Shown here: in pieces, positions 2,919 through 24,427 of the stretch
Layout of the letters: each line of letters opens with the position of its first letter
Numbering within the stretch: the stretch's first letter is position 1
Assembly (NCBI GenBank): GCA_022447205.1
Contig: JAKVBQ010000033.1
Coordinates: 1-34,117, forward strand
DNA from: Phycisphaerales bacterium
Lineage (GTDB): Bacteria > Planctomycetota > Phycisphaerae > Phycisphaerales > SM1A02
Length of the DNA stretch: 34,117 nucleotides
Direction: 5' to 3'
Notes under the pieces: model-generated
Database searches by the model: none
What the model was told of the DNA's origin: nothing
What the model saw: the letters and a program-made list of their open reading frames with translations, nothing else
Program-made: the position numbers and the translations under genes

Positions 2919-3422
2919 TCAGGCGGCGTCATCACCGAACTGGAGCAGGTCCTGCGGCTGGAGCTCGGCAGCGACGACGCGCTCGTCCAGGCCGGGCAGT
3001 GCGTAGTAGTCGTCGAGCCTGCCCGCGAGGTAGTGGGCATCGGTCAGCACGAAGCGGCACGGTCGATCGAGCACTCGAGTCGCGAAGCGCACGGCACGAG
3101 AGAGGTGCTGCTCCGTGGTCGCCGCGAGGAGCGAACCGTCACTCTCCATGCGCATCGGCAGGAACCGGAACTGCCACGCCTGACGGCGGGTCACGAGGTC
3201 GAGTACGTTCAGGTCGATCTCGGAGTCGGTCGGACGAACGATCTCCCCGAGTCGAATCGTGGTTTCGGTCCAGATGTTCTCGATCCGCTGGGGATCGAGT
3301 CCGTACATCCGCTGGGCCAGGAGGCCGAAGGGTTCCGGATGGCTCTGCTGCCTTCTCAGGATGAATTCGGTCTGTTCAACCGTCAGCAGTCCGGCCGACA
3401 CGAGCATTTCACCGATACGCAT
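2919..3422 (-). CDS. Standalone MshEN / GspE N-terminal domain protein
   Basis: A 167-residue protein made only of the domain normally found at the N terminus of type II secretion and type IV pilus ATPases (GspE, PilB, MshE). Residues 2-25 fit the MshEN motif R-x-G-x-x-L-x-x-x-G-x-x-x-x-x-Q-x-x-x-x-L-x-x-Q, known in MshE to bind cyclic di-GMP. A second, looser copy follows at about 32-54 (FGLLAQRMYGLDPQRIENI). The middle (about 66-130) resembles the alpha/beta part that follows in GspE. No ATPase domain, Walker motif or membrane segment is present. A good ribosome binding site (GGGAGG) lies about seven bases before the ATG. A role as a cyclic di-GMP-sensing adaptor is inference from the domain alone. 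It stands alone and converges on the hydrolase gene. Confidence 0.75.
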   Translation of the reverse strand: MRIGEMLVSAGLLTVEQTEFILRRQQSHPEPFGLLAQRMYGLDPQRIENIWTETTIRLGEIVRPTDSEIDLNVLDLVTRRQAWQFRFLPMRMESDGSLLAATTEQHLSRAVRFATRVLDRPCRFVLTDAHYLAGRLDDYYALPGLDERVVAAELQPQDLLQFGDDAA

Positions 3423-3793
3423 TCTCTCAGCCTCCCTCAGGTGATCGAATCAGGATTCAAGTGCTTCCTACATCGACGCGGACCAGGCTCGGGTCGAGCC
3501 GCAACCACCACAAACACGCGGCTTGTCGCTGGCGGGACGGTGCATGGGCGAACAGGCGCACGGAGCTCGATTCTTTCGGGACCTGCCGCCGGAACGACCC
3601 CGACAAAGAGTCGTCCGAGAAGACGGGTCGGGCTTGGAATCGGTGATTCCGGACGCTACGCTTCATTCGAACCCCTTGCTGGAAAGGTGGAGCGGGACTG
3701 ACTCGCGGCGGACACGACATCGAATCACGACTCCAGGCGGAACTCAGCGCCTGGGGTGATCTCCCTGCCGGAGGAGGCTCCGCGGGACGCCGG
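3423..3793. other. Divergent intergenic region with hairpins and a candidate promoter
   Basis: This 371-base gap separates two divergent genes. It contains perfect inverted repeats GGCTCG/CGAGCC (3486-3500), GGAATC/GATTCC (3636-3650) and CCAGGCG/CGCCTGG (3733-3754), plus a CCCGAC/GTCGGG pair near 3599-3632. A sigma70-like promoter for the plus-strand gene can be read as TTGGAA (3634-3639), 17 bases, TACGCT (3657-3662). I see no clear promoter for the minus-strand gene. Confidence 0.5.
3634..3662 (+). promoter_or_regulatory. Candidate sigma70-like promoter
   Basis: TTGGAA at 3634-3639 and TACGCT at 3657-3662 are 17 bases apart. Transcription would begin near 3669, about 125 bases before the ATG of the following gene. 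The -35 box overlaps a 6 bp inverted repeat (3636-3650) that could act as an operator. Confidence 0.4.
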
Positions 3794-4621
3794 ATGAAAC
3801 GACGTCTCGAGTCGGTTCTGGACGGTCCCCTCGGTGCATCAGGCGCCCTCGCGGAGGCGCGCGTGGCGAGACGCCTGATCGATGCAGGCTGTGCGCTCGA
3901 GATCGAACTCCCGACACCCAACGGGCGCACCTGCGACTTCGAAGTCACGGTCGACGGCCGGTCGTTCTTCCTGCACGTGAAGTGTCTGCAGGCGGAGAAC
4001 ACCTCCCACCCACCGCTTCCGAGCTTCCTTCGCTCGATCGAACAGGTCGAACGCCCGTTCCTGGTCGAGGTCGACTGGCGCGGTGATCTCGAGGACCGGG
4101 AGCTGGCCTCCTTCGCCTCGGCCGCGCGGGCATTCGTGCAGGAGGCCCGGATCGGCGAGGAGCTCCTGCACCGTGATGCCGAAGGACACCCCGCGGGCAC
4201 GGTCCGCATCAGCACGCCGTTGAACACGGAACGAGCGGTCGTCGCGGTCTCGCGGTGCACCCCGGAGATGATCTCCCGCGTGGGTCGACTCCTGGAACGT
4301 GCCTACGTCCAGTTCATGCCCGGCGGTGAGAACGTGATCCTGGTCATGACCGAGGACCCCGCACACGAACGCGTCGTCGACCTCGCCCTGCTTGGCACGC
4401 ATGTCGAACGCTGGGACCGCATTCCCCGAAGCGGCAAGCGAGTCGCCCACGGTCGGGCCGAGGACGGCTTCTGGTCCGGCGAACGTTTCGACCTGAGCCG
4501 GGTCGTTGGTTGGATGCAGTTCGATTCGGAAGCGATGCCACCGCGCCTCTGGTTCCGCCACGAGGAGCGACCGGACGAACCGCTGCGGGGCACGATCATC
4601 GAGGCACTCGGCGCGGACTGA
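3794..4621 (+). CDS. Unknown protein with a possible PD-(D/E)XK nuclease-like core
   Basis: I do not recognise the family of this 275-residue protein. Its N-terminal third has the order of a restriction-endonuclease-like fold: a helix with Glu21 (GALAEARVARRLIDAG), a strand with Asp48 in CDFEV, and a strand ending HVK (His61, Lys63) in place of the usual (E/Q)xK. If real, the second acidic residue is replaced by histidine or supplied by Glu50. There are no membrane segments or signal peptide. The start is unclear. The frame stays open upstream to 3647, and the added residues (about 32 from a CTG at 3698, which follows AGGTGGAG) read like protein. The nearest SD-like run to the ATG at 3794, GGAGGAGG, ends about 16 bases away, which is far. 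It converges on hflX, 30 bases away, but no functional link is evident. Confidence 0.6.
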   Translation: MKRRLESVLDGPLGASGALAEARVARRLIDAGCALEIELPTPNGRTCDFEVTVDGRSFFLHVKCLQAENTSHPPLPSFLRSIEQVERPFLVEVDWRGDLEDRELASFASAARAFVQEARIGEELLHRDAEGHPAGTVRISTPLNTERAVVAVSRCTPEMISRVGRLLERAYVQFMPGGENVILVMTEDPAHERVVDLALLGTHVERWDRIPRSGKRVAHGRAEDGFWSGERFDLSRVVGWMQFDSEAMPPRLWFRHEERPDEPLRGTIIEALGAD

Positions 4622-4651: not shown

Positions 4652-6082
4652 TCAACCCAGATGCTCCTCCGGCCAGTCGCGATCATGCGGCGGCACCTCC
4701 GGCAACCTGCGTTGCACGGGCTCCGGCCAGATCTCGAGCAGTGCCTCCTGAGCGGGCACCCCGTCGAGCGTGAAGTTCGAACCCCTTGCCAGCAGCTGCT
4801 CGACCTGCCGGCGGCCGATCAGGACGCGGTAGACGCTGGTGGTCTCCGTCCAGGAACGTTCGAGGACCTCGGTTCGCTTCTCGAGGAAGTCCATCAGCCG
4901 TCCATCCGACATCGGGGCTTCAAGCGACACCTCCGAAGTCGGTCCCTTCATGAGCTCCTGCACACGCGCAACGAGTCGGTCCCGACCCTCGCCGGTGCGA
5001 GCGCTCAGGGGAATCGCCTCGGGATCACGTTCCAGCCAGGCCTCGATCGGATCGACCGCGAAGAAACCGCGGTTCGTCTGCTCGCGAATGACGTCGACCT
5101 TGTTGAGGGCGAGAATCCTCGGCTGGTCACCTGCTCCGATGCCGTCCAGGACCTCGAGCACCGTCTCGTACTGCATCACCGCATTCCGATCGGAGACGTC
5201 GAGCACGATGACCAGCACGTGCGCACGGACCGTCTCCTCGAGCGTTGAACGGAAGCTCGCGACCAGGTGGTGCGGCAGGTTGCTGATGAAGCCGACGGTG
5301 TCCGACAGGAGCGCGCGGGCTCCCCCACCGAGCGGCCAGGATTCGACCCTGGTGCCGAGCGTCGCGAACAGCTGGTCCGCGACGTAGGCGCCGCCTTCGG
5401 TCAGGGTGTTGAAGAGCGTCGACTTCCCGGCGTTGGTGTAACCGACCAGTCCCACGGTGAAGTGTTCGAGGGTCCGTTGATCCACCTCGCGGATCTTTCG
5501 CTTCTGCACGTCGACCAGTCGTTCACGAAGCTGACTCAGTCGCTTCTGGACGATTCGACGGTCGATCTCGAGCTGCTGCTCACCGGGACCACGGGTACCC
5601 ACGCCGATCGGTGCACCGCCGGTGACCTGGCCGAGGTGCGTCCACATCGCCCGCAGGCGCGGTGCGGTGTACTGGAGCTGGGCGATCTCGACCTGCAGGC
5701 GAGCCTCCCTGGTCCGAGCCCGCGTCGCGAAGATGTCGAGGATCAGCTCGCTTCGATCGAGGACCTTGCAGCAGACCGCCTCCTCGATTGTCCGGATCTG
5801 CATGGGCGCGAGTTCGTTGTCGAAGACCACGACCTTCGCATCCACCATCTCGACGAGATGGACCAGTTCCTCGAGCTTGCCCTTGCCGAGATAGCTGGAT
5901 CCCTTGGGACGCTCACGCTTCTGGAGCAGCTCCCCCACCACCTGCCCGCCGGCGGAATGGACGAGCGCACGGAGCTCCCCGAGAGGGTCCTCGCCGGACT
6001 GCTCCTCGCGGGTCAGCAGCACCTTCACGAGCACCGCCCGTTCAGCCTCGACCTCGATGTTGGTGCGGACGCCTTCTTCCAT
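4652..6082 (-). CDS. hflX: Ribosome-associated GTPase HflX
   Basis: A 476-residue HflX, which in other bacteria binds the ribosome, splits stalled 70S particles and aids recovery from heat or antibiotics. The N-terminal nucleotide-binding domain covers about 15-125 (KGSSYLGKGKLEEL near 60-73). The glycine-rich GTRGPGE linker is at 163-168 after a coiled region, and the G domain has G1 GYTNAGKS (214-221), G3 DTVGF (261-265) and G4 NKVD (327-330). The C-terminal domain is complete. The ATG at 6082 is preferred because GGAG lies five bases before it. The frame is open much further upstream, but that part overlaps tsaD on the other strand and does not look like HflX. It diverges from tsaD across a 72-base gap; a TAGACT box on the minus strand (6111-6106) may be its -10 element. 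Confidence 0.96.
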   Translation of the reverse strand: MEEGVRTNIEVEAERAVLVKVLLTREEQSGEDPLGELRALVHSAGGQVVGELLQKRERPKGSSYLGKGKLEELVHLVEMVDAKVVVFDNELAPMQIRTIEEAVCCKVLDRSELILDIFATRARTREARLQVEIAQLQYTAPRLRAMWTHLGQVTGGAPIGVGTRGPGEQQLEIDRRIVQKRLSQLRERLVDVQKRKIREVDQRTLEHFTVGLVGYTNAGKSTLFNTLTEGGAYVADQLFATLGTRVESWPLGGGARALLSDTVGFISNLPHHLVASFRSTLEETVRAHVLVIVLDVSDRNAVMQYETVLEVLDGIGAGDQPRILALNKVDVIREQTNRGFFAVDPIEAWLERDPEAIPLSARTGEGRDRLVARVQELMKGPTSEVSLEAPMSDGRLMDFLEKRTEVLERSWTETTSVYRVLIGRRQVEQLLARGSNFTLDGVPAQEALLEIWPEPVQRRLPEVPPHDRDWPEEHLG

Positions 6083-6127
6083 GGAACTCCAATCTCGAGC
6101 TGAGGAGTCTAGCGGCTCAGGACTCGG

Positions 6128-7222: not shown

Positions 7223-7780
7223 ATGGGGTACCGACCACCCTGGATCGACCCCAGGTCGATCTACGTCGAACAACCACACCCGGCCACCCTCGAGGAGCAT
7301 GAGCTGCTCCAACAGGTGGAGATCTCCTTCGGCCGGAGTTCGGGACCCGGCGGCCAGCATCGGAACAAGGTGGAGACCGGAGTCCGGATCGTCCACCCCG
7401 AGACCGGCATCGAGTCACGGGCGACCGAACGCCGCGAGCAGCGAGTCAATCGGTCCAAGGCGCTCTTCCGGCTTCGCATGAAGCTTGCGATCAAGGTCCG
7501 TACCCCGACGGGCCGGGACAACCACCGACCGAGCCGGCTCTGGGAAGCTCGCCGCCAGGGCACCAAGATGCCGGTGAACCCCAAGCACGAGGACTACCCG
7601 AGCCTGCTTGCCGAGGCCCTGGACGTGATCATCGCCCGCAAATACGACGTCGCCGGGGCGGCGGGCATCCTCGGCATCACGATGAGCCAGCTGACCAGGC
7701 TGCTCCGGCAGGAGAAGCACGTCCTCGCCCGGGTGAACGATGGTCGTGAATCGGTCGGCCTCCCTCGACTGCGCTCGTGA
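7223..7780 (+). CDS. RF-1 domain (GGQ) protein, ArfB/release-factor-like
   Basis: A 185-residue protein with the peptidyl-tRNA hydrolysis domain of class I release factors. SSGPGGQHRNKVETGVRIVH (39-58) contains the universal GGQ at 43-45, the loop that triggers ester cleavage in the peptidyl-transferase centre. The codon-recognition domains of RF1 and RF2 are absent, so it is a rescue or quality-control factor of the ArfB/ICT1/PrfH class rather than a normal release factor. Residues about 125-170 form a separate C-terminal segment (AEALDVIIARKYDVAGAAGI...) resembling a helix-turn-helix-like bundle, not the short basic tail of ArfB. The ATG lies three bases after the tsaD stop, pointing to translational coupling. 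A role beside HflX and TsaD in translation fidelity is inferred from context. Confidence 0.88.
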   Translation: MGYRPPWIDPRSIYVEQPHPATLEEHELLQQVEISFGRSSGPGGQHRNKVETGVRIVHPETGIESRATERREQRVNRSKALFRLRMKLAIKVRTPTGRDNHRPSRLWEARRQGTKMPVNPKHEDYPSLLAEALDVIIARKYDVAGAAGILGITMSQLTRLLRQEKHVLARVNDGRESVGLPRLRS

Positions 7781-7805
7781 CCGGGCAACGCACCGCGGGT
7801 AGGCT
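7777..7805 (+). promoter_or_regulatory. Candidate promoter giving a leaderless M20 peptidase mRNA
   Basis: GTGACC (7777-7782), a 17-base spacer and TAGGCT (7800-7805) are followed by seven bases and then the ATG at 7813. This spacing puts the transcription start at the ATG itself. The -35 box covers the end of the preceding gene and a GTG that could otherwise be taken as the start codon. Confidence 0.45.
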
Positions 7806-7812
7806 GGGAGGC

Positions 7813-9036
7813 ATGACCACCCAGACCAGCCAGCGTCTCGATCGTGCCCGACAGCTGATCGAAGAGGAACTCCCCCACCTGATCTCGATCCGGCACGATC
7901 TCCACGCCCACCCCGAGCTGCAGTACCAGGAGACCCGGACCAGCGGTGTCGTCCAGCGTGAACTCGAATCGGCCGGGGTCGAGTTCGTTCCCGGCCTGGC
8001 CGGCGGGACGGGGGTCCTTGGACACATCCCCGGCGAGACCGGATCGGCCATGGGGCTGCGCGCCGACATGGACGCCCTGCCGATCCTCGAGGAGACCGGC
8101 CTCGGCTACGCGTCGAGCATCGACGGTCGCATGCATGCATGCGGACATGACGGACACACGACGATCCTCATCGGCGCGGCACGCGTCCTCTCGAGGCTCT
8201 CGGCGGAATCCCCACTCCCCCAGCCCGTGACCATGGTCTTCCAGCCTGCCGAGGAAGGCGGAGCCGGCGGCAAGCGGATGTGCGAGGAGGGTGCACTGGA
8301 CGGTTCCAGGATCGGTCCTGCGGTCGGCTCGATGTTCGGCCTGCACGGTCACACCGAAAGCACGGTGGGCTCCGTCGGTTCCCGAGTCGGCCCCCTGCTT
8401 GCGGCCGCCGACGAGGTGATCATCGACATCAGGGGCGTGGGCGGCCACGCCGCGATGCCGCACAGCTGCACCGACCCGGTGCCCTGCGCGGCGAGCATCA
8501 TCCAGGCGCTGCAGGGCATCGTCTCGAGGAACACCAACCCGCTCGATTCCTCGGTGATCTCGATCACGCAGCTCACGGCAGGCGACGCGTTCAACGTCAT
8601 CCCGGACACGGTCCGGATCAGCGGCACCGTCCGCTCCCTGCAGGAATCGACGCGTGAGATGCTGGAACGTCGGATCGGCGAGGTGGCCACCGGGATCGCC
8701 AGCGCCCACGGCTGTACGGCGGTGGTCGATTTCATCCGTGGCTATCCGGTCACCCGCAACGAGGCCGGAGCGGTGGCGACCTTCGAACGAGCGGCCGGCG
8801 AAGTGCTCGGCGACGATTGGGTCCGCCCGATCGAGCATCCGGTCATGGGCGGTGAGGACTTTTCCTTCTACGGAGAGCGCGTCCCCGCCTGCTTCTTCTT
8901 CCTCGGACTCCTCCCCCCTGGCGAACAGGCGATGCCGTCCGTTCACAACGCCCGATTCGACTTCAATGACGAGGCAATCAAGACCGGAGTCGAGGTCTTC
9001 TGTAGCCTCGCGCTCGGACTGGGCACCAGCGAATAA
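7813..9036 (+). CDS. M20 family amidohydrolase (hippurate / N-acyl amino acid hydrolase type)
   Basis: A 407-residue M20D-type zinc amidohydrolase, related to hippurate hydrolase, IAA-amino-acid hydrolase and N-acetyl-diaminopimelate deacetylase. Landmarks are HDLHAHPELQYQE (28-40), RADMDALPI (83-91), the metal-binding HACGHDGH (108-115), the catalytic Glu pair 147-148 in PAEEGG, the dimerisation-domain loop GVGGHAAMPH (208-217), MGGEDFSFY (345-353) and the final VHNARFDF (377-384). It releases amino acids from N-acyl conjugates; the true substrate is unknown. I prefer the ATG at 7813. A GTG at 7777, overlapping the stop of the previous gene, would add 12 residues unlike the family. GGGAGG lies only one base before the ATG, too close for a ribosome binding site, in keeping with leaderless starting. 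Confidence 0.92.
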   Translation: MTTQTSQRLDRARQLIEEELPHLISIRHDLHAHPELQYQETRTSGVVQRELESAGVEFVPGLAGGTGVLGHIPGETGSAMGLRADMDALPILEETGLGYASSIDGRMHACGHDGHTTILIGAARVLSRLSAESPLPQPVTMVFQPAEEGGAGGKRMCEEGALDGSRIGPAVGSMFGLHGHTESTVGSVGSRVGPLLAAADEVIIDIRGVGGHAAMPHSCTDPVPCAASIIQALQGIVSRNTNPLDSSVISITQLTAGDAFNVIPDTVRISGTVRSLQESTREMLERRIGEVATGIASAHGCTAVVDFIRGYPVTRNEAGAVATFERAAGEVLGDDWVRPIEHPVMGGEDFSFYGERVPACFFFLGLLPPGEQAMPSVHNARFDFNDEAIKTGVEVFCSLALGLGTSE

Positions 9037-9045
9037 CCACCTGAT

Positions 9046-9065
9046 GGCCCCTGAAGGCCCCTTTT
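9046..9065 (+). terminator. Weak terminator after the M20 gene
   Basis: GGCC (9046-9049) can pair with GGCC (9056-9059) around CCTGAA, followed by CCTTTTG and a T5 run at 9071-9075. The stem is only four G/C pairs, so this is a tentative call. Confidence 0.3.
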
Positions 9066-9088
9066 GAGCCTTTTTCCGGACAAAGCGC

Positions 9089-9116
9089 TTGCCAAGGCGT
9101 CTATAACCTGTAGCAT
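9089..9116 (+). promoter_or_regulatory. Candidate promoter at the left edge of the hairpin-rich region
   Basis: TTGCCA (9089-9094), 16 bases, TAGCAT (9111-9116). A second AT-rich box, TATAAC, lies inside at 9102-9107. Transcription would begin between about 9114 and 9124, at or inside the palindrome at 9121-9134. It would read plus-strand into the hairpin-rich region. Confidence 0.45.
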
Positions 9117-9120
9117 TCAA

Positions 9121-9141
9121 TCAACGATCGTTGATCTTTGG
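9121..9141. repeat. Palindromic element, copy 1 (TCAACGATCGTTGA + TCTTTGG)
   Basis: A perfect 14 bp palindrome (9121-9134) followed by TCTTTGG (9135-9141). The same 21 bases with one change occur at 15840-15860 upstream of rpoB. It overlaps the likely transcription start of the hairpin-rich region, as a repressor site or a shared promoter element would. Confidence 0.6.
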
Positions 9142-9160
9142 TGACAGACCTGAGGCCAGA

Positions 9161-10336
9161 ATGCCCAACAGCGCCCACAAGACAACTGCCCTCTCCCTCA
9201 ACCGCACACCGGCTCCAGCCGAGCAACTCCGGGCGGACGAGTTCCCCGCCCGAGGTGGTTCACCGCGTGTGCATGGCTCTTCGCCGGAGCTGCCCCGACA
9301 CATCGATCCCGGCATGACCCCTCTCCATGCCGGAACCGAAGTGCACTGGATCGAGCAGGCGGGAATGACAACGTCGATCGAGCTCCTCCCGATCGACGGT
9401 GCACCCCACACCGAGCCCGCTGCTCCCTTCCGACAGGGCCGCTCCGGCAACGAGCCACACCTGGCCTCAAGGCGGCCGGCAACTGCATCGCTGCACGCAG
9501 TTGCCGGCCCCGAGAGGCACGGCACCAATGAGCAGGCGATCGTCTTCCGGTCCGCCCCACGACACGTCGAGCACACCTCGAACGGAACGTGGTCGGCATC
9601 CGGATCATCCGAGCCCTTCGGGGGAACCAAAGGCTTGGTCGATGCTTCAATTGACTCGTGCAGCATGACGGATCCTGCCAGGTGTGCCGGCAGGAAGGTG
9701 GCGGTGGGAGGACTCGTGGCGAGCAGGTTCGGAACCGGTTCCGACCTGCGTGATGCCGATACCTGGCGAGGCTCGAGCCTCGTCGACAACCTGACTGGAT
9801 GCACTGACACACAGTGCACCGGAGATCGGCATTCCGGGGCTGATCTCCATCATGCACCCCTGCCCCGACGTTCCGCGGCCGGGCAGGGCTTTGTTACCCG
9901 CGTCGGAGCGGTTCATGCCGGTTGGTGCGACGTATCCTCAAGAGACCGGCGAGGACCATCCGACCCTTCATGTGATTCCATCGGCGTCCACGGCGGCAAG
10001 TCGTTCCTTGCCGTCCGGATCGACCGGACCGTGATGCATCAGGAGGACGGCATCACGGTCGGGCCGACGAGGCTTCCTTCATTCCGGGGAACATCCCCAG
10101 CCTCATCCGATCGCCAGGGCGTCACATGGACATCCCGATCTGAATCCACCATCAACGACCCGGCCTTCTCCGAGCTTTCGTTCATCGGTTGCCCTGGCCG
10201 GGCAGGTGGATCCAGGACCCCGGACTCGGTGATGCTCACCGCCAAGGTCGGTACCGACCAGGGCGGCCCCGATGAGTGGATGCTTGTCGGCGGCGCGGGT
10301 TTTTTCGACTTGTTCCCAGGCGGCAGGCGGTGTTGA
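9161..10336 (+). CDS. Doubtful orphan ORF across the hairpin region
   Basis: An open frame of 391 codons from an ATG with GAGG about six bases upstream. The predicted protein is rich in Pro, Arg, Ser, Gly, Thr and His, has no recognisable domain, signal or repeat, and does not read like a folded protein. A hand count over the first 80 codons gives roughly 69, 55 and 73 % GC at positions 1, 2 and 3. The first 50 codons of the M20 gene next door give about 38 % at position 2 and 80 % at position 3, so periodicity here is weak. A terminator-like hairpin (9858-9895) and a T6 run (10300-10305) lie inside the frame. Its length is nonetheless surprising for random sequence, so I list it at low confidence. 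Confidence 0.18.
   Translation: MPNSAHKTTALSLNRTPAPAEQLRADEFPARGGSPRVHGSSPELPRHIDPGMTPLHAGTEVHWIEQAGMTTSIELLPIDGAPHTEPAAPFRQGRSGNEPHLASRRPATASLHAVAGPERHGTNEQAIVFRSAPRHVEHTSNGTWSASGSSEPFGGTKGLVDASIDSCSMTDPARCAGRKVAVGGLVASRFGTGSDLRDADTWRGSSLVDNLTGCTDTQCTGDRHSGADLHHAPLPRRSAAGQGFVTRVGAVHAGWCDVSSRDRRGPSDPSCDSIGVHGGKSFLAVRIDRTVMHQEDGITVGPTRLPSFRGTSPASSDRQGVTWTSRSESTINDPAFSELSFIGCPGRAGGSRTPDSVMLTAKVGTDQGGPDEWMLVGGAGFFDLFPGGRRC
9858..9895 (+). terminator. Terminator-like hairpin inside the hairpin region
   Basis: CCCTGCCC (9858-9865) pairs with GGGCAGGG (9881-9888) around a 15-base loop and is followed by CTTTGTT. If used, a transcript from the 9089-9116 promoter would end here and be about 775 bases long. 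Confidence 0.4.
10266..10305 (+). terminator. Second terminator-like hairpin with T6
   Basis: GCCCCGAT (10266-10273) pairs with 10286-10294 (8 bp with one bulged C and one wobble pair). TTTTTT follows at 10300-10305, five bases after the stem. The spacing is longer than ideal. It lies within the doubtful open frame, about 30 bases before its stop. Confidence 0.3.
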
Positions 10337-10594
10337 TGCCCCCCACTCGACACCGCTCGCTTGTGAACCCAGGTCGCCCCCACCTCCCCCATGCGGAGGT
10401 CGGGGCGGCTGTCATTGGGGCCCTCCCAGGAGGCTTGGAAGGTCCGAATCCCGATCGACCGAGGATTGAGGCCTCGACCACCCTCCGCAAGGGCAGGAAA
10501 TCGAGAAAGATCGGGTTTCGAGGCCGCAAAGGCGCTTTTGATCCCGTACATATAGAACATCGGAGGCGGCTCCTCACCGAACCGGATCCCTCCG

Positions 10595-10680
10595 AAGGCT
10601 GATGTCCCGACACGAACTGCACACATGAGGCTGGACGCATCCCACGCCGCGCCAGCCTGATCCCCACACTGGAGCACTCC
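10595..10680. other. Leader just upstream of the secreted protease
   Basis: Between the last hairpin and the protease ATG I see only a GGAG ribosome binding site six bases before the ATG. An AT-rich patch (CATATAGAAC, about 10548-10557) a little upstream could be a -10 region for the protease gene, but no matching -35 box is clear. Confidence 0.3.
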
Positions 10681-13281
10681 ATGTTTCTCCCTTTCCTGAG
10701 TCTCACCCTGGCCGCCACCACGATGACCGATGGAACGCCTCCTCCGATCCTCGATCGGATGGACTCCCCCATCGTCCGGACCAACCAGCCGAGTCCGTGG
10801 CGCGCGTTCAGCGCTTCAACGGTTTCGTCCGACCTCGCCGGGTTCGATGCGATCGCACGCAGGTCGAGGGACTCCGGACAGGACGTCCTCGTCGAACAGG
10901 TCCCGCTCGGTCTGGATGTCACGGTGAACCTCGTCCTGCGCGAATCCAGGTCGATCACCCCCGACAGTCGGTTCGTGCTGGCGTCACTCGAGGCCGATGG
11001 TTCGGTCACCGAGGTAGACCTGCCTGCACCGACGATCGTCGTGCTCACCGGACATGTCGAGGGCGAGCCGGACTCCGATGCGATGCTTGCACAGGGTGAC
11101 ATGGGTACCACCGGCTACGTCCGGCTGGGCGAGCGAACCTTCCTCGTCTCGAGCGGACCGCAGGGCTCGGACCAGCCCATCCTGAGTTTCGAAGCGGACC
11201 TGATGCCGGAAGCCGCCCTTGAGCTGGCTCCCGTCGCCTGCACCCTGCTCGAGATCGACGGACACGCCGGTGGAACCGAGAACAGCGACGAGGGCGGTCT
11301 GGCAGGAGGCGGCACGCTGCCCTGCCGGAAGGTCGGCTTCGCGATCGAGACCGACGAAGAGTACCTCGACATGTTCGCCAGCCAGAACGCCGCGAACGCC
11401 TATGCCTCCCTGCTGGTCACCGCGTCGAGCGAGATCTACCAGGAGCAGTTCAACACCTACCTCGAGATCGACTACATCCGACTCTGGTCGACCACCGACC
11501 CGTGGACGTCGTCCAACACCTCCAGCCAGCTGACGGAGTTCAGGGAGTACTGGGAAAGCAACATGGGCTCGGTCGAACGCGACCTCGCCCACTTCCTCTC
11601 CGGTCGTGGCCTCGGCGGCGGCGTGGCCTGGCTCGGCGGCCTCTGCGGCGGCAGCTATGCCTACGCCCTCAGCGCGAACCTCAACGGCTTCTTCCCCTAC
11701 CCGATCCAGGACAACAGCAGCCAGAACTGGGACCTCATGGTCTTCTCCCACGAGACCGGGCACAGCTTCGGCACCGGCCACACCCACGACAGCTACAACC
11801 CCCCGATCGACGGATGCGGCAACAACGACTGCTCGGTGATCCCCAACGGGACGATCATGAGCTACTGCCATCTCTGCAGCGGCGGCATCGCGAACATGCG
11901 GATGATCTTCCACCCACGCGTGGAAGAGGTCGTGCTGGACTACCTGGACTCGATCTCCTGCTCATACACCGGTGCCGGTGAAGGCGCGGTCGCAGCGGAC
12001 GACGAGTACGCGATCGACATCAACGAGATCGTGGTCCTCGATGCCCTGGTCAACGACATCGCACTGAGCTGCGGTGCGATCTCGGTCATCGACCATGACA
12101 CCACCACCGACGGAGGTGCCCTGGTCGAACTGATCCCGGCCCAGGGCACCAACGGGCGGGACCGTTTCCGCTACACCCCCCAGGATGGCTTCACCGGGGC
12201 CGACAGCTTCGACTACACGATCGCGGACGACAGCGGGAACCAGTCGAGCGCCGTGGTCACGGTGACCGTCGCCACGAACGTCTACTTCAACATCTCCGGC
12301 GGCGAACTGGACGTGATCTACGCCGAAGGCCAGCCGGTCACGGTGACCATCATCACCGCGGGCGTGACCGTCGACCCGTCAACCTGCACGCTGACCGTGA
12401 ACGACGGCACAGGGGCCCAGACCGTTCCGATGAACGCGAACTCCCCGACCTCCTTCAGCGGCACGTTCCCGACCCTGGTCTGTCCCGGAAACGCGGACTA
12501 CTCGTTCAGCATCCAGGCCGTGGGTGGCGCCAGCTACACCAGTGACCTGTACAGCTCGAACATCGGCTTCGAACTCGACGACATCCCAAGTGGCTGCTGC
12601 CTGACCTGGTCGGTGAGTGGAGACGCCGAAGGCCCCGAGACCGGGCGATGGGAGATCGGCGCCCCCTGCGGCACGACCACCCGAGGTGCACCGGGAACGG
12701 ACTTCGACGGCTCGGGAAGCTGCTTCCTCACCGGGCCCGGCAGCTGTGATGCCAACACCGATGTCGATGGCGGCACCACGATCCTGACCTCGAAGCGCTT
12801 CGTCGCGGACGAGGACACGAGGGTCACCTGGGCCCAGTGGTACGACAACACCGGCTCGGGAACCGGAGCCGACCCCGGCAACGACGTCTTCAGGGCCGAG
12901 ATCACCAATGACAACGGAGCCACCTGGGTTCTCGTCGAACAGGTCGGCCCCAACGACAGCCAGTCCAGCGGTGGCTGGTTCGAGAAGCAGATCATGGTGG
13001 TCGACTACGTCACCCCCACCACGCTCTGCAAGATGCGCTGGATCGCGGAGGACGCGGCATCCGGTTCGGTCATCGAGGCGGCGATCGATGCCTTCGGTGC
13101 CGGCAGCTGCGTCCCGCCGGACCAGCTCCTGGGCGACCTCAACGGCGATGGCCAGGTCGACGGGCAGGACCTGTCGGTCCTCCTGGGGAACTGGGGCACC
13201 AGCGGCAACGGCGACATCAATGAGGATGGCATCGTGAATGGTTCCGACCTGGCCGCCCTCCTCGGGAACTGGACAGGCTGA
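10681..13281 (+). CDS. Secreted metzincin metalloprotease (reprolysin/M12B-like) with C-terminal dockerin-like EF-hand repeats
   Basis: An 866-residue exported zinc protease. The start MFLPFLSLTLAATT looks like a short signal peptide, though without the usual basic residues. A propeptide-like region runs to about 210. The catalytic domain (about 215-430) holds HETGHSFGTGH, with zinc ligands His357, His361 and His367 and catalytic Glu358, and a Met-turn at Met393 (TIMSYC); this is the metzincin signature. A cadherin/Ig-like domain follows at about 445-540 (YTPQDGFTGADSFDYTIAD). The C terminus (about 817-866) has two calcium-loop repeats, DLNGDGQVDGQDL and DINEDGIVNGSDL, each followed by LLGNW, the dockerin-like tail common on planctomycete extracellular proteins. 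It probably degrades external protein. It follows the hairpin-rich region and ends in its own strong terminator, so it is probably transcribed alone. Confidence 0.9.
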   Translation: MFLPFLSLTLAATTMTDGTPPPILDRMDSPIVRTNQPSPWRAFSASTVSSDLAGFDAIARRSRDSGQDVLVEQVPLGLDVTVNLVLRESRSITPDSRFVLASLEADGSVTEVDLPAPTIVVLTGHVEGEPDSDAMLAQGDMGTTGYVRLGERTFLVSSGPQGSDQPILSFEADLMPEAALELAPVACTLLEIDGHAGGTENSDEGGLAGGGTLPCRKVGFAIETDEEYLDMFASQNAANAYASLLVTASSEIYQEQFNTYLEIDYIRLWSTTDPWTSSNTSSQLTEFREYWESNMGSVERDLAHFLSGRGLGGGVAWLGGLCGGSYAYALSANLNGFFPYPIQDNSSQNWDLMVFSHETGHSFGTGHTHDSYNPPIDGCGNNDCSVIPNGTIMSYCHLCSGGIANMRMIFHPRVEEVVLDYLDSISCSYTGAGEGAVAADDEYAIDINEIVVLDALVNDIALSCGAISVIDHDTTTDGGALVELIPAQGTNGRDRFRYTPQDGFTGADSFDYTIADDSGNQSSAVVTVTVATNVYFNISGGELDVIYAEGQPVTVTIITAGVTVDPSTCTLTVNDGTGAQTVPMNANSPTSFSGTFPTLVCPGNADYSFSIQAVGGASYTSDLYSSNIGFELDDIPSGCCLTWSVSGDAEGPETGRWEIGAPCGTTTRGAPGTDFDGSGSCFLTGPGSCDANTDVDGGTTILTSKRFVADEDTRVTWAQWYDNTGSGTGADPGNDVFRAEITNDNGATWVLVEQVGPNDSQSSGGWFEKQIMVVDYVTPTTLCKMRWIAEDAASGSVIEAAIDAFGAGSCVPPDQLLGDLNGDGQVDGQDLSVLLGNWGTSGNGDINEDGIVNGSDLAALLGNWTG

Positions 13282-15816: not shown

Positions 15817-16074
15817 GAGTACGATCCGACCCCTCAAATTCAACGTTCGTTGATCTTTGGCCTGTGCTGGCCCCACCGCCGTGTCGATAATCTTGAATAA
15901 AACCCGGAATTTGACCTTCGAGTGGTATTGTTCTCGCTCTTAGGGGGGTTTACACTTCTACGCTTGTCGGCGAGCAGGCCTTAATTCCAAGTACGAGCAA
16001 ATGCGCATCGATCAATCCGGACCTCGGACTGCCGAAGGTGCGCACGCTTCTATCACCCTCGAGGGAAGGTGTCG
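15817..16074 (+). promoter_or_regulatory. rpoB upstream region and leader
   Basis: About 260 bases after the rplL terminator with no gene. The best -10 box is GATAAT (15886-15891); 17 bases upstream is TGTGCT (15863-15868), a poor -35 box, so an activator may be needed. The palindromic element at 15840-15860 lies just upstream. The leader of about 175 bases is AT-richer than its surroundings and has no clear terminator-type hairpin. GGAAGG (16064-16069) is the rpoB ribosome binding site. Confidence 0.5.
15840..15860. repeat. Palindromic element, copy 2 (TCAACGTTCGTTGA + TCTTTGG)
   Basis: Matches the element at 9121-9141 in 20 of 21 bases; the one change breaks the central pair of the palindrome. 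It ends two bases before the -35 position of the candidate rpoB promoter, where an activator might bind. Confidence 0.6.
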
Positions 16075-19878
<3,804 letters not shown>

Positions 19879-19951
19879 TCAGGCCCCGAGCGTCCTTCTT
19901 CCGTCGAACGAACAGCACTTCCAGCAACCCTCCAGGGGAGCTTCAAAGACC

Positions 19952-24427
<4,476 letters not shown>

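Follow-up and report, generated by a model that had tools for sequence, protein, structure and literature searches.

A spacer of the planctomycete Phycisphaerales genome GCA_022447205.1, downstream of an M20-type amidohydrolase gene (7777–9036; TIGR01891), raises the question of why a stretch between two genes should be so rich in inverted repeats. An earlier note, made from the letters alone, described positions 9121–10594 as a gene desert and as a candidate large structured RNA, with two alternatives, an array of small hairpin RNAs and a cruciform-rich DNA site. The window analysed here, the whole stretch of 34,117 nucleotides, forms contig 27 in a genome of 86 contigs and 3.25 Mb. On the other side of the spacer lies a gene (10681–13281) whose label, protease, is taken over from that note; its product is a large protein that matches tandem-95 and dockerin weakly. 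Relatives of this protein gene are found between M20 and rplK in G003, G015, G047 and G049, and in the window rplK and rplA follow it. The names rplJ and rpoB, also used for genes of the window, were assigned from sequence and position.

Our favoured answer, held with somewhat better than even confidence, is that 9121 to about 10425 is a fast-evolving, independently transcribed gene for a large structured RNA. We consider such a gene probable because the stretch folds better than chance and because hairpins are retained in a relative with changed letters. Transcription, strand and both ends of this RNA are what we infer from the features collected in Table 1.

Table 1. Features of the candidate RNA locus (positions in the window; two-sided changes are counted against the congener G001)
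Feature	Position	Strand	Observation
Promoter-like hexamers TTGCCA and TAGCAT, 16 bases apart	9089–9116	+	Best match; 1% of shuffles reach it
5′ element TCAACGATCGTTGATCTTTGG, core self-complementary	9121–9141	+	Six loci, 0–2 mismatches
Candidate large structured RNA	9121–10425	+	Ends inferred, 3′ end by eye
391-codon open frame, translation possible	9161–10336	+	Not gene-like (codon usage, substitutions)
9-bp hairpin, loop AGCTCCTCC	9372–9398	+	G001: loop identical, stem changed in part
13-bp perfect hairpin	9474–9509	+	By eye lost at the aligned G001 position
Helix	9673–9695	+	Three two-sided changes
Helix	9765–9784	+	Three two-sided changes
Helix	9858–9888	+	Three two-sided changes
Long interrupted helix, best conserved domain	9902–9964	+	19 pairs, two with two-sided changes
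11-bp hairpin	10027–10060	+	Three two-sided changes; two A-C cells
GC-rich 3′ hairpin	10373–10412	+	No T run after it

Hairpins and their retention in a congener

Perfect stems with loops of 3–15 bases were counted in 9121–10594 and in two sets of references, namely 200 dinucleotide shuffles and 41 mutually overlapping control pieces taken from elsewhere in the window. Ten stems of at least 7 bp were observed against a shuffle mean of 1.74, five of at least 8 bp against 0.37, and three of at least 9 bp against 0.065, and none of these counts was reached by any shuffle or any control piece. The claim that the hairpins are far beyond chance is thus borne out. The individual hairpins listed earlier are also real: 9474–9509 (13 bp, perfect), 9372–9398 (9 bp) and 10027–10060 (11 bp) were confirmed, the palindromes at 9767–9782 and 10246–10259 can be read directly in the sequence, and the hairpins at 9723–9749 and 10375–10407 are both present in the computed fold. 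This fold, of 9122–10424 with a pairing span of at most 150 bases, contains 29 hairpins, 14 of which have at least five pairs. Nine-base loops do repeat within the 5′ part (ACGAGTTCC, ACCCCTCTC and AGCTCCTCC). Of 17 long loops, 6 are pyrimidine-rich; seven shuffles have 1–2 of 11–15 and an eighth equals the observed 6 of 17, so that the surplus is suggestive only.

Folding energies point in the same direction. Segments of 120 nt inside 9037–10680 have mean z-scores of −1.30 on the + strand and −1.16 on the − strand (26 segments per strand), and those outside have means of −0.45 and −0.42 (54 segments per strand; 20 shuffles each throughout). Shuffled sequences, which the earlier note had allowed might fold equally well, fold worse than 9121–10425.

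Among 41 genomes, its own included, the spacer finds a DNA match only in the congener G001, besides its own genome. The two spacers are nearly equal in length, and identity in their alignment is 0.53, compared with 0.75 and 0.74 in the flanks. The aligned spacers have mean folding z-scores of −1.62 (+) and −1.63 (−) over 26 segments per strand, 23% of which fall under −3 on either strand, whereas the same measure gives 0.10 and 0.19 on the M20 side (32 segments) and −0.17 and 0.11 in the protease gene (42 segments). For the part from the 5′ element to the 3′ hairpin, the values are −1.87 and −2.19. In each of four helices, three pairs have two-sided changes; when alignment columns are shuffled, helices with at least two such changes number 0.06 on average and 1 at most (n = 50). 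A domain of 180 columns has 5 of its 45 pairs changed on both sides, which 15 of 500 shuffles reach and which compares with 0–1 in slid controls, although its structure was derived from this same alignment and the test is therefore biased in its favour. The strongest hairpin (9474–9509) is by eye not retained in G001. The fold of 9121–10425 is conserved more than its letters. Thus, of the related genomes in which compensatory changes had been suggested as a test, one relative displays them, and the covariation apparent from these alignments comes mainly from this one genome pair.

A common 5′ element at six loci

The 21-base 5′ element also occurs in G013, so that 3 of the 41 genomes carry it, and a search of the family matched 8 of 181 genomes: both genomes of the window's genus (g1), four of the five of a second genus (g13), and G004 and G123. 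The fifth g13 genome, in which the element was not matched, is 54% complete. The matches in G004 and G123, with two mismatches each, were set aside, as the stretches fetched there contain no M20 match. At the remaining six loci (the window, G001, G013, G202, G066 and G204), the element closely follows the same M20 gene and has 0–2 mismatches; it starts with AAACG in G066 and with CAACG in the others. The sequence TCAACGNTCGTTGA is found in 5 of 10 genomes searched and, apart from position 15840 of the window, only at these loci. A 20/21 copy of the element stands at 15840–15860, upstream of rpoB, and the rpoB surroundings fetched from G001, G013, G066 and G204 contain no match to the element with up to 5 substitutions. 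At the G204 locus (L059, G204:C4) the M20 gene gives three separate matches, as would be seen after a frameshift or a misassembly.

In a promoter search that required the −10 hexamer to end 3–9 bases before the element, a promoter-like −10 was found to end 3–4 bases before it at all six loci. The fractions of shuffles that match as well are 0.01, 0.176, 0.194, 0.005, 0.008 and 0.332 for the window, G001, G013, G202, G066 and G204, respectively, which means 0.01 or less at three loci, the other three being singly no better than chance. It is because a conserved 5′ element follows promoter-like hexamers that transcription of 9121–10425 as RNA is favoured, and 9121–9141 is likely to mark where the RNA begins, or else to be an operator.

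With the 3′ end placed by eye, the candidate RNA would be 1303 and 1290 bases long in the two g1 genomes and between 826 and 915 bases long in g13. All six loci fold strongly. When the four longer sequences are cut to their first 900 bases and 20 shuffles are made per sequence, single-sequence z-scores on the + strand are −7.37, −5.21, −4.54, −5.62, −5.09 and −5.17 in the order given above, and those on the − strand are −5.02, −7.38, −5.06, −2.12, −2.06 and −8.53. Fourteen control stretches of 900 bases have a mean of −1.04 and a lowest value of −3.45 on the + strand, and −0.60 and −3.69 on the − strand. The + strand therefore lies beyond all 28 control folds at six of six loci, and the − strand at four of six.

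Within g13, comparison of G013 with G202 yields one helix with two-sided changes against 0.02 in shuffles, and that of G066 with G204 yields zero. This one helix is the counterpart of 10373–10412, and a GC-rich hairpin near the 3′ end is present in G001, G013 and G202 alike. Mean alignment z-scores are weak for both pairs (−0.44 and −0.71 for G013–G202; −1.04 and −0.79 for G066–G204). Similarity of the RNA bodies is matched by 0 of 100 shuffles for G013–G066 and G202–G066, by 32 of 100 for G013–G204 and by 19 of 100 for G202–G204. Between the genera, the window or G001 against G013 or G202 is matched by 3 to 22 of 100 shuffles, and against G066 or G204 by 4 to 94 of 100. A two-sequence model of 9892–10070, run with stricter filters on the 181 family genomes, gave strong scores only for its own two sequences; matches at E ≤ 1 of any kind were seen in 24 genomes, with G105 (E 0.0011) coming next after those two, and the model misses the loci of G013, G202, G066 and G204. 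Homology of the bodies across the two genera would thus rest on position and on the 5′ element.

To survey other genera, 20 stretches were fetched from 95 genomes with an rplK match, and M20 is present in 14 of them. With borders placed by eye, the spacer measures 111 to 212 bases in five of these. Among the nine longer spacers, four were inspected, and those of G021, G007 and G005 look by eye like ordinary small genes; for the fourth, G049, and for the remaining five, absence of the RNA is presumed only because the 5′ element was not found there.

RNA, DNA or protein

Some of the same observations might be expected of other kinds of locus. The spacer could be a DNA site, its many inverted repeats forming cruciforms or single-stranded hairpins, which we regard as improbable. 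Pair alignments score alike on both strands, and in the four best window–G001 helices A-C cells outnumber G-T cells by 5 to 2, which would suit structure in DNA as well as in RNA. What argues for RNA is the 5′ element behind promoter-like hexamers at all six loci, albeit three of these are singly at chance level, and the + strand exceeds all controls six times out of six where the − strand does so only four times. Of the three possibilities raised at the outset, the structure common to them all is supported, and the 5′ element tips the choice toward RNA. The RNA is probably encoded on the + strand, and it may be one large molecule or several small ones. A long cis-acting leader, regulating the ribosomal-protein and RNA-polymerase genes from rplK onward, is in our view very unlikely. 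It would suit G066 and G204, where the first gene read downstream is rplK; that first gene is instead the protease gene in the window, G001, G013 and G202, followed by rplK in the first three of these, and the constant neighbour at six of six loci is M20, on the upstream side.

The description as a gene desert passes over an open frame of 391 codons that runs through the locus, and a fast-evolving protein of 391 residues with a strongly folded mRNA has to be considered. The longest stop-free frame is reached by 7 of 1000 shuffles for the window and 0 of 1000 for G001, in which a 385-codon frame has its ATG and stop aligned with those of the window. For the six loci in the order used above, the distance from ATG (chosen by eye) to stop is reached by fractions of 0.001, 0.0005, 0.16, 0.045, 0.07 and 0.045 of shuffles. 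In g13, however, the frame already closes at 145 to 187 codons. Gap lengths divisible by three account for 8 of the 12 gaps in the frame with MAFFT globalpair and for 5 to 9 of 9 to 21 with other MAFFT settings, but for just 23 to 33% with four Needleman–Wunsch settings. Codon usage ranks frame 0 over +1 and +2 in all six sequences, yet the best reverse-strand frame scores at least as high in all six, and the scores themselves (−0.12 bits per codon for the window, −0.21 for G001 and −0.20 to −0.57 for the four others) contrast with +0.29 to +0.72 for eight genes of the window, each left out in turn.

Substitutions argue against a protein as well. Differences between the window and G001 by codon position are 155, 193 and 197 of 376, without excess at the third, and dN is 0.72 with a dS of 0.95. 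In the G066–G204 pair, the frame differs at 43/181, 49/180 and 51/188 positions, compared with 1/142, 0/142 and 15/135 for rplK, and ambiguous bases in G066 are distributed 7/8/0 over the codon positions of the frame and 0/0/7 over those of rplK. The window–G001 alignment of the frame scores 306, and the other frames score 334, 303, 290, 226 and 194, one being better and two about equal. The protein has zero NCBIfam matches, and its sole Pfam match, DUF7695 (E 0.067), is below cut-off. Structure models made by AlphaFold2 from single sequences are often poor; that of the window protein, made without a control fold, has a mean pLDDT of 32. Homologues were sought in 101 genomes, and 12 matched at E ≤ 1, namely the genome itself, G001 (2e-27) and ten others at 3e-4 to 0.74; viral contigs contained no confirmed match to the protein, and plasmids and phages gave zero DNA matches at E 1e-5. 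The frame is longer than chance yet not gene-like, and we regard it as unexplained rather than disproved; a protein-coding gene appears to us unlikely, if less so than a DNA site.

Known RNAs and possible function

Few large structured RNAs are known in bacteria, and their function is mostly unexplained. A search of the window with Rfam 15 gave zero matches at curated cut-offs, and the seven weak matches in 9037–10680 (E 1.5 to 6.8, far under the cut-offs) look like chance. RNase P RNA and tmRNA are housekeeping RNAs of several hundred bases and likewise structured. Neither model matches at the locus, and the genome has both elsewhere (G000:C8, G000:C67), so that both identities were rejected; among eight genomes examined for them, RNase P RNA is present in seven and tmRNA in all eight (six over cut-off). 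OLE, ROOL and GOLLD have Rfam entries. Unlike them, 9121–10425 has no Rfam match and is recognised in two genera of one family only. They share with it a large size, many hairpins and stems that covary while the sequence varies, and their self-complementary loops resemble its self-complementary element (PMC12286853). A table in PMC2864571 lists the Rhodopirellula-1 motif, a candidate RNA of Planctomycetes and Proteobacteria, with no Rfam number beside it; the parallel to 9121–10425 drawn here is this listing as a planctomycete candidate. Among the best-matching openly accessible papers listed for large bacterial and planctomycete noncoding RNAs, we recognised nothing as 9121–10425, and a search of the same literature for structured RNA of Phycisphaerae found none. 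The stretch 9121–10425 is probably a large structured RNA without match in Rfam, recognised so far in two genera.

If so, transcription of the + strand would probably start at the palindromic 5′ element under a sigma-70-like promoter upstream of it, the RNA would form a chain of local hairpins with a compact domain at about 9890–10070, and it would terminate near the GC-rich hairpin. Tentatively, the most likely mode of action of such an RNA would be in trans or as a scaffold, by its shape. The core of the 5′ hairpin, TCAACGATCGTTGA, has GATC at its centre and is complementary to itself, so that it could bring two copies together; AAACG instead of CAACG costs the element of G066 one pair. In OLE, a loop alternates among the palindromes GGCC, GAUC and AGCU, which its authors read as favouring contacts from one copy to another (PMC12286853), and joining of the present RNA through its 5′ core is a guess by analogy with OLE. 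Pyrimidine-rich loops such as AGCTCCTCC, identical in G001, could pair with ribosome-binding sites. A bolder proposal, to which we give little credence, is a new RNA family, recognised in two genera, whose members are translated by ribosomes as well as folded, with selection on the fold and on the open frame and not on the amino acids. In that event the act of translation, or the assembly of copies by way of the self-complementary 5′ hairpin, would be part of the function. The locus would add to the planctomycete lineage an RNA family whose fold outlasts its sequence, with a constant position in the genome and an as yet unexplained open frame, and the six loci render the candidate testable.

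Elsewhere in the window, Pfam gave no match at E 1e-5 for four consecutive frames on the + strand (3033–3701, 3794–4621, 4661–5248 and 5267–6103). Very long mirror frames on the − strand (16012–19809 and 19943–24262) lie opposite rpoB and the next + frame in the region 16012–24427, and are probably a side effect of codon usage rich in G+C.
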